A stretch of DNA of 64,000 nt from the NCBI GenBank assembly GCA_903824675.1, contig CAIJXV010000093.1, positions 1 through 64,000 of the forward strand. Direction: 5' to 3'. The notes beneath the pieces are model-generated. The model had not been told where the DNA came from, did not search any database, and worked only from the letters and a program-made list of their open reading frames with translations. Position numbers and translations under genes: made by a program. Every line of letters begins with the position of its first letter. Position 1 is the first letter of the stretch. Of the stretch, positions 27,977 to 46,697 are shown piece after piece. Source of the stretch: an uncultured bacterium (lineage in GTDB: Bacteria; Verrucomicrobiota; Kiritimatiellia; CAIKKV01; CAIJXV01).

Positions 27977-27982
27977 GAATAA

Positions 27983-28226
27983 GGGGCATAGGCTGTAGGG
28001 GCCTAGACCGTAGGAACGTAGGATGTATAGAGGAGCATAGGCTGTAGGGGTTGAGGCTGTAGGTGCAACCCACAATAACGAACGGTCAGGAAACCGAGTG
28101 AACCAATGTCAAAAATCAGCATGCTGGAATTGAAGACCCCAACGGGCAAAAGCGACTCCCTCCTCCTACCGCCTAACCCCCTACAGCCTATGCCCCTGCT
28201 CCCTATACCCCTACCGCCTATGCCCC
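27983..28226. repeat. long inverted repeat with CTACAGCC/GGCTGTAG arms inside the moxR operon
   Basis: The 257-bp gap between moxR and the DUF58 gene contains a perfect 19-bp inverted repeat, GGGGCATAGGCTGTAGGGG (27983-28001) against its complement (28178-28196). Further arm units are GCATAGGCTGTAGGGG at 28035-28050 and CCTATGCCCC at 28217-28226. About 100 bp between the arms is unrelated sequence. Transcribed with the operon, this would fold into a long hairpin that could slow or stabilise the message. A weaker relative lies at 39.3-39.5 kb. Confidence 0.7.
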
Positions 28227-28233
28227 TTTCCCC

Positions 28234-45456: not shown

Positions 45457-45485
45457 TTGACAAATCCTGTTGTTTGACATAAAGT
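45457..45485 (+). promoter_or_regulatory. sigma-70-type promoter for the structured RNA
   Basis: TTGACA (45457-45462), a 17-nt spacer and TAAAGT (45480-45485) form a plausible sigma-70 promoter in an AT-rich stretch unlike the surrounding GC-rich sequence. The expected start is near 45492, just ahead of the structured RNA. A second TTGACA at 45474 offers a shifted alternative. Confidence 0.5.
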
Positions 45486-45491
45486 ATATTG

Positions 45492-45698
45492 TATTGATAG
45501 GAATACTTGTGTATTGATTGGAGTAGAGCCGTGAAAAGAAACGTCAGAAGAACACGTCCAACCGTAATCCGCACCCACGCGATGCGGGGGTGTTGCCGTG
45601 GGTGTAGTCGCCCCGAAGGAGGAGCTACGCGTTACTGTTGATTTTAAACAGTTATTGACGACCTAGCCCACCCCCGGAAGACGGGAGGTGGGCTTTTC
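45492..45698 (+). ncRNA. candidate structured RNA of about 205 nt
   Basis: No protein is encoded, yet the stretch is full of helices: CACCCACG/CGTGGGTG (45572-45579 with 45597-45604, perfect), GTAG/CTAC (45604-45607 with 45625-45628) around a CCCCGAAGGAGG loop, ACTGTT/AACAGT (45634-45639 with 45647-45652) and a terminator hairpin. The order of helices around a GCGTTA-hairpin segment recalls HEARO/omega-RNAs of IscB elements, but no IscB or TnpB gene is present, and this is from memory of the fold only. It does not fit tRNA, tmRNA, 6S or SRP RNA. It could also be a leader for the small gene downstream. Confidence 0.45.
45665..45698 (+). terminator. intrinsic terminator of the structured RNA
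   Basis: AGCCCACC (45665-45672) plus CCCG pairs with CGGG plus GGTGGGCT (45687-45694) with one bulged A and a short AAGA-type loop; four T residues follow. A strong rho-independent terminator. Confidence 0.75.
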
Positions 45699-45755: not shown

Positions 45756-46088
45756 ATGGTCAATTCAAATGAAGAATTCCGGCGATCTGGCGCCGGTGAC
45801 GTGCACACGGTCCTGCGCGAGATCCTCAGCCGGGTGCAGGCCATGCGGATCGTAGAGGTCGAACGACAGACGAATCTGGACGCAATGAATGTTCGGAAAG
45901 GGCTGGAATATCTGATCGCCGCACGGAATGTGGAAGTGCTGCGGCCTCTGTTCGAACCGGAACGAACGGAATACGTGCGCCTCATCCGCGAGACGGACGG
46001 GCAGCATCTCTGGCAACAGGATCTCGCCCGCCGCAGGACGCCGGATCGGCCGGCGGATGCCCGACGCCTGGCGAGGATGGGAATGTAG
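45756..46088 (+). CDS. small hypothetical, winged-helix-like protein
   Basis: A 110-residue protein; ATG 45756 has GGAG 6 nt upstream, and an in-frame GTG at 45726 is the alternative. Residues about 14-60 (VLREILSRVQAMRIVEVE, then LDAMNVRKGLEYLIAARNVEVL) have the helix-turn-helix-plus-wing rhythm of small winged-helix proteins. The C-terminus is Arg-rich. The family was not recognised. It lies between the structured RNA and the convergent Rrf2 gene and could be another regulator of the sulfur locus. Confidence 0.5.
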   Translation: MVNSNEEFRRSGAGDVHTVLREILSRVQAMRIVEVERQTNLDAMNVRKGLEYLIAARNVEVLRPLFEPERTEYVRLIRETDGQHLWQQDLARRRTPDRPADARRLARMGM

Positions 46089-46107: not shown

Positions 46108-46551
46108 TCAAATGTCGTAATTGAGCCCCGACCGAGCCTCGCGGTCTGTTTGCCGCTGGATCAGATCTTTCAAGGTGATCCCCCGCATGGCGGCATTCAG
46201 TTGGGTCTCGATCTCCGACCAAGCCTCGCGCGCCGTGCAGGCGATACTGCGCTCACAGGTCTCGGGTTTGGCGACACAGGTCACCAAAGTCAGGTCGCCT
46301 TCCAGGACTTCGACCAGGTCCCGAATGGAGATGGCCTCAGGCGGACGCGCCAGCGCGTAGCCCCCATGCACGCCCCGAACCGTGCGAAGAATACCGGCGG
46401 CTTTTAGCGGATTAATCACCTGCCATAAATATTTCTGAGAAATGGCCTGACGGCGGGAAATATCACGCAAGGTCACAACCCCTTCGCCCTGATTTAAAGC
46501 GATGTCCAGCATCACCCTTAAACCATATCGTCCTTTGGTCGAAACTTTCAT
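46108..46551 (-). CDS. Rrf2-family transcriptional regulator (IscR-like cysteines)
   Basis: A 147-residue winged-helix regulator. Residues 1-85 form the Rrf2 DNA-binding domain (VSTKGRYGLRVMLDIAL, then ISQKYLWQVINPL and VRGVHGGYALAR). Cysteines at 92, 99 and 105 (C-x6-C-x5-C) closely match the Fe-S ligands of IscR (92, 98, 104), so it can probably hold a cluster. It is divergent from the sulfur operon starting at 46712, with a palindrome over that promoter, so it is the likely repressor. CymR, the classical cysteine regulator of this family, lacks these cysteines. Confidence 0.9.
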   Translation of the reverse strand: MKVSTKGRYGLRVMLDIALNQGEGVVTLRDISRRQAISQKYLWQVINPLKAAGILRTVRGVHGGYALARPPEAISIRDLVEVLEGDLTLVTCVAKPETCERSIACTAREAWSEIETQLNAAMRGITLKDLIQRQTDREARSGLNYDI

Positions 46552-46650: not shown

Positions 46651-46697
46651 TTGACACGTCAATCATCTAATTGGATAGTAAACCAATAGATTATTGG
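46651..46697 (+). promoter_or_regulatory. promoter and overlapping operator of the sulfur operon
   Basis: TTGACA (46651-46656), 17 nt, GATAGT (46674-46679) is a sigma-70-type promoter for the operon beginning at 46712. Perfect inverted repeats overlap and follow the -10: ATTGG-N8-CCAAT (46670-46687) and CCAATA-N3-TATTGG (46683-46697). They cover the transcription start, as expected of a repressor site, and the adjacent Rrf2 gene is the natural candidate. AGAGGAGA at 46701-46708 is the ribosome site. Confidence 0.6.

Follow-up and report, generated by a model that had tools for sequence, protein, structure and literature searches.

Introduction

Attenuators of the trp, his and leu type are characterised by control codons, by a stop codon situated next to or within the antiterminator region, and by hairpins that are mutually exclusive. 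For cysteine, the literature that we searched contains few leader-peptide attenuators, namely the leaders predicted upstream of cysS in Rhodobacterales and the mycobacterial cys leaders, which are without intrinsic terminators. The closest described element that we found is uORFC-8-2, located upstream of cysS in Rhodobacterales, a computational prediction with tandem Cys codons that is taken to be an attenuator sensing cysteinyl-tRNA (PMC8632094), and with which we compare our leaders by description only. The mycobacterial cys operons are preceded by Cys leader peptides, for which no conserved terminator hairpin has been reported (PMC1262725), and the title of Canestrari et al. 2020 (Mol Microbiol 114:93; cited in PMC13236596) describes the short open reading frames (ORFs) of these leaders as leaderless.

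Here we analyse an element flanked by an aminotransferase gene and a small ORF at 45756 in a stretch of 64,000 nucleotides (hereafter the window) from a genome of the class Kiritimatiellae. From its sequence features we consider it, with a probability of roughly 0.85, to be a cysteine-responsive, ribosome-mediated transcription attenuator; the type of switch is well known and the leader family is previously undescribed. Like uORFC-8-2 (PMC8632094), it has tandem Cys codons in a short ORF, together with stems and a terminator ending in a U-run, and is proposed to act by ribosome-mediated attenuation that senses cysteinyl-tRNA. It differs in occurring in other bacteria, in having as putative targets a DUF3034 barrel gene, metY and other sulfur amino acid genes or a winged-helix-like gene rather than cysS, and in that the Kiritimatiellae leaders carry a cluster of three to four Cys codons and a stop codon inside the antiterminator. 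With the mycobacterial cys leaders it shares Cys codon runs near the stop and a position upstream of cysteine or sulfur genes, but the Kiritimatiellae leaders have an intrinsic terminator and, clearly so in the window copy, a Shine-Dalgarno sequence. As in the attenuators of the trp, his and leu type, the leader ORF contains clustered control codons of one amino acid (three to four Cys codons in each of eight copies), an intrinsic terminator separates it from the target, and the stop codon lies in the antiterminator region, with antiterminator and terminator excluding each other and the position of the ribosome being decisive in folding of the window copy and unevenly so in the others. The amino acid, however, is cysteine, and no protector hairpin is evident that would serve the leader when untranslated. 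A conserved family of this kind would supply the full set of parts of a cysteine switch (Cys codons, antiterminator and terminator) in a poorly studied class and would link the uncharacterised outer-membrane barrel DUF3034 to sulfur acquisition, while the case would also illustrate how a structured transcript taken for 'non-coding' may turn out to be a translated leader.

The transcript and its reading frame

A sigma-70-type promoter, TTGACA-N17-TAAAGT, is found on the forward strand at 45457–45485, where the consensus scan gives 10 of 12 matches, a score expected by chance 0.8 times per 1.8 kb. In six relatives, promoter-like hexamers with a spacing of 17–18 nt also precede the leader ORF by 42–58 nt, the copy in genome G047 being without hexamers of that spacing at that distance. 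The RNA 45492–45698 folds at −73.1 kcal/mol (z = −3.0 against dinucleotide shuffles) and ends in an intrinsic terminator (45665–45698, forward strand) made of a hairpin of −24.5 kcal/mol at 45665–45694 and a short U-tract (TTTTC), a terminator absent from the list of the consensus scan. A hairpin with a U-run likewise stands 3' of the ORF in every one of the eight copies; for G004 and for the second copy of the window's own genome (G000, contig C13) the automatic choice of hairpin was poor, and the terminator stem was instead read from the sequences. An earlier note on this DNA had proposed a promoter, a structured transcript and a terminator here, and all three are borne out, the transcript by its unusually stable fold and the terminator in spite of its short U-tract.

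The same note saw no coding potential in this transcript, which proved wrong. The Shine-Dalgarno sequence GGAG (45520–45523, forward strand) stands 7 nt ahead of a GTG start codon, from which an ORF of 36 codons (MKRNVRRTRPTVIRTHAMRGCCRGCSRPEGGATRYC; 45531–45641, forward strand) extends to a TGA stop, and profile relatives of this ORF at E ≤ 2e-6 are present in seven genomes. The putative sensor codons are Cys21 UGU, Cys22 UGC and Cys25 UGU (45591–45605, forward strand), belonging to a Cys cluster that recurs in eight of eight copies, and a further codon, Cys36 UGU at 45636–45638, immediately precedes the UGA at 45639–45641; such an extra Cys before the stop is seen in six of the eight. In the minimum-energy fold a hairpin within the ORF (45571–45605, forward strand) covers the Cys codons, and would presumably be unfolded by a translating ribosome. 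The Cys patterns themselves differ among copies (CCRGC, CCCC, CxCxCxC, with some C-x-C arrangements), the N-terminal half of the peptide is variable, and the two closest copies differ at 15 codons non-synonymously and at 5 synonymously. This excess indicates that the peptide as such is not conserved, in keeping with a leader in which nothing matters but the Cys codons and the RNA formed by the end of the ORF. The supposed non-coding RNA is thus most likely a short leader gene with a cluster of Cys codons.

Relatives of the leader

Seven relatives of the leader were found, one in the window's own genome and one in each of six other Kiritimatiellae genomes, all with ORFs of 34–39 residues containing a Cys cluster and followed by a terminator 20–35 nt beyond the stop. 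The copy on contig C13, a Cys-rich ORF of 35 codons with a near-identical terminator, was detected by DNA search in the same genome, and it was the sole match when the DNA search was extended to 57 other genomes; the DNA similarity search of phage records gave no match. A pattern derived from the two ORF ends and applied to 345 genomes of the class yielded one more copy (G305), and those in G004, G009, G135 and G047 were found by reading upstream of DUF3034 genes in members of the class. The profile built from these six peptides and that of the window recovered all seven at E ≤ 2e-11 and added a new copy, G133, at 2e-6. In this search of the class the next match, at E 1.8e-4, lies out of frame in another gene, and the six matches inspected at this level and weaker were judged to be due to chance. 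Across 387 genomes of the phylum the corresponding search revealed no convincing copy beyond the class, the matches below the five known copies being weak (E ≥ 8e-4) and resembling out-of-frame stretches of other genes. In a pattern scan of 84,980 species there were 13 matches, and an open leader ORF with a terminator was present only in an already known Kiritimatiellae locus; a match in Victivallaceae, inspected over its whole length, resembles part of a gene encoded in a different frame, the remaining ones being judged solely from the frame and the 90 bases after the stop.

The specificity of the combination was assessed on 2,961 short ORFs in 351 kb (strand-bases) of the window and neighbouring loci. 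Three Cys within seven codons occur in 27 of them, and a terminator follows 8 of those 27, namely the seven leaders scanned and one weak other ORF; within the window the leader is the sole ORF with both a Cys cluster and a terminator. Among the copies, that of G047 deviates in that nine consecutive G precede the conserved CTATGCG and its ORF ends in another frame without the terminal Cys, a difference that is either genuine or due to a homopolymer error of the assembly. Inside the leader ORF of C13 and G305, ATG CGG TAC TGT TGA is preceded by a strong AAGGAGG (L003 about 2060–2030, reverse strand; L007 1350–1324, reverse strand). The separate ORF of four residues, MRYC, that is possible in these two copies was set aside because it is missing in G009 and G047, and because the window has ACG in place of ATG.

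Alternative pairing at the end of the leader

At every copy some 30 nt at the 3' end of the ORF, the stop codon among them, are able to pair with the spacer and the terminator 5' arm. In the window this antiterminator (45618–45672, forward strand) joins the end of the ORF to the spacer and the first bases of the 5' arm, and it and the terminator are mutually exclusive. It has a folding energy of −17.5 kcal/mol as against −8.4 ± 2.3 for shuffled sequences (z = −3.9), none of 300 shuffles being as good. With the best register, four copies have z values of −3.9 to −4.5 and two more of about −2, the folds of the C13 and G009 copies being no better than shuffles. Since the 3' half of the MAFFT alignment A2 is poorly aligned, pairs were not counted on it, and native pairing partners were instead compared with partners swapped among copies. 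Over the eight copies the native partners pair better, 288 of 40,320 permutations being as good, and with two copies dropped 6 of 720 are as good, in a test for which the segments were chosen by hand and kinship was handled only through the two dropped copies. The terminators differ in sequence among copies, those of G305 and G047 sharing little with the others, and so the pairing was kept while the sequence changed.

The dependence of this pairing on the ribosome was modelled by forbidding the ribosome footprint from pairing before the terminator 3' arm is made. In the window leader the pairs that involve the terminator arm then have a predicted probability of 0.86–0.87 when the ribosome is stalled at Cys21, 22 or 25, as against 0.00 when it has reached the stop. 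The same contrast is clear in G305, G004, G009 and G133 and weaker in the C13 copy, while in G135 and G047 the masks do not separate stop from stall. Once the whole terminator is present it wins at equilibrium in every ribosome state (P 0.93–0.95), which implies that the choice between the hairpins must be kinetic, made during transcription, as is the case for attenuators of the trp type. The antiterminator also forms without a ribosome, and a classical protector state is not evident; an untranslated leader might therefore read through, in departure from the textbook case.

DUF3034 and the downstream sulfur genes

All seven relatives stand directly upstream of a gene for a predicted DUF3034 (Pfam PF11231) outer-membrane barrel (for example L003 1065–1904, reverse strand, and L102 7576–8412, forward strand). 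Because the G004, G009, G135 and G047 leaders were found through DUF3034, the independent evidence for this link comes only from C13, G305 and G133, to which searches by DNA, pattern or profile led without recourse to DUF3034, and each of which lies upstream of it. The gene occurs in 71 of 332 genomes of the class, and no leader precedes the copies examined in the large family f35, from which it follows that the leader family is limited. The structural model of the protein (mean pLDDT 78.5) is a beta-barrel preceded by an N-terminal helix compatible with a signal peptide, and the solved folds nearest to it are those of the outer-membrane barrels FapF, NanC and KdgM. The literature that we searched names DUF3034 in two papers, once in each, and describes no function for it; judging from the model and the gene context, it may be a porin for a sulfur source.

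Genes of sulfur amino acid metabolism follow DUF3034 at four loci. On C13 and in G004 the next gene encodes an O-acetylhomoserine sulfhydrylase (TIGR01326, above cut-off). In G133, DUF3034 is followed by a shortened metY-like gene, by genes for two Cys/Met PLP enzymes with that for a CBS-type PLP enzyme between them, and finally by cysK. In G047 a further Cys/Met-type stretch comes after DUF3034, and then genes for a PALP-CBS enzyme, a small winged-helix-like protein and a Cys/Met lyase, in that order. The G133 metY-like gene (L105 6968–7846, reverse strand) is 292 codons long and is missing the middle of the family profile, being a pseudogene or the product of a deletion or of an assembly error. 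The G009 and G305 leaders are close to the ends of their contigs, and the gene that comes next in G135 is unrelated and lies on the opposite strand.

Proposed mechanism and alternative explanations

We infer that the leader is translated, that cysteinyl-tRNA is the signal and that its scarcity favours expression. RNA polymerase would start downstream of the promoter at 45457–45485, and a ribosome would begin the leader ORF behind it. With plentiful cysteinyl-tRNA the ribosome would pass the Cys cluster and reach the UGA inside the 5' strand of the antiterminator, which would then be blocked, so that the terminator would fold and transcription would stop. With scarce cysteinyl-tRNA the ribosome would wait at codons 21–25, and the antiterminator would form before the terminator is complete, allowing the polymerase to read into the downstream gene, namely that at 45756 in the window, and DUF3034 followed by metY, cysteine synthase or lyase genes at other copies.

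Alternatively, the leader could be translated and act through a stalled ribosome, the cue being not cysteinyl-tRNA but the binding of a metal by the nascent Cys-rich peptide or a modification of that peptide (persulfide formation or oxidation). Leader peptides that contain Cys and sense at the peptide level are known from other bacteria, and the clustering of the Cys residues, partly as C-x-C, and the additional Cys before the stop in six of the eight copies would suit it; yet the varying Cys pattern and the freely changing remainder of the peptide fit codon counting better than a binding site, and the downstream genes are those of sulfur amino acids and not of metal export, so that we regard sensing by the peptide as unlikely. 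It is very unlikely that the ORF simply encodes a small Cys-rich protein with a function of its own and no attenuation: such a protein would account for the promoter, the Shine-Dalgarno sequence, the terminator and the 36 residues with clustered Cys, but not for the variable N-terminal half and the non-synonymous excess, nor for the retention by native partners of antiterminator pairs that span the stop codon, nor for the constant position upstream of DUF3034 and sulfur genes. The window copy, detached from the DUF3034–metY genes found after other copies, might also act in trans, its terminated leader RNA, once released, or its Cys peptide regulating the second locus on C13, much as the Sinorhizobium trp leader peptide acts in trans, a role to which we give little credence.

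The earlier note had favoured a stand-alone HEARO/omega-RNA on account of its helices. Several consecutive hairpins and a length of about 200 nt do recall such a guide RNA, but the 5' part, where a guide would lie, is a coding frame with relatives, HEARO (RF02033) is absent from the stretch even at E ≤ 10 and from the genome, and the genome contains no IscB (NF040563), which the note had suggested seeking outside the window; this or any other guide RNA thus seems extremely improbable. With all Rfam families, the window gives no match at the gathering score, the best sub-threshold ones being Trp_leader and CRISPR-DR28 (both E 1.2), and since no curated riboswitch model matched in the window, a riboswitch of a known Rfam class was discarded. 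The further suggestions of a sulfur-linked small RNA or a leader riboswitch for the gene at 45756 came closer as regards the sulfur link and the leader position, while a translated Cys-rich peptide is more likely than either a riboswitch or a stand-alone small RNA.

The window copy and its neighbours

At the window copy of the putative cysteine attenuator the first downstream gene is not DUF3034 but encodes a small winged-helix-like protein of 110 residues (45756–46088, forward strand), the presumed target, which has a distant relative in the G047 sulfur operon (E 3e-4). Relatives of this protein resemble FeoC-type winged-helix regulators, below cut-off. A paralogue in the same genome, on contig C88 (L112 3552–5947), lies between a Porin_5 gene and the gene of a phosphate-type (PBP_like_2) binding protein, which suggests that these proteins are a family of small regulators placed in nutrient-uptake operons; transporter-like genes come after the binding protein gene. 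Outside the switch, a convergent gene for an Rrf2-family regulator follows (46108–46551, reverse strand; TIGR00738, E 7e-39), the closest equivalogs of which are CymR and IscR, both below cut-off, and further on are two Cys/Met lyase genes, at 46694 and 47857.

Upstream of the window leader stands an aminotransferase gene that shares 87% identity with the one ahead of the G004 leader, while the Rrf2 gene shares 63% identity with that directly upstream of the G009 leader. On account of these identities the window looks like an ancestral site, from which the DUF3034–metY genes would seem to have been separated, being now on C13 behind their own leader copy. Elsewhere in the window two short tandem arrays of 15-base units lie close together, at 27982–28067 and 28165–28227.
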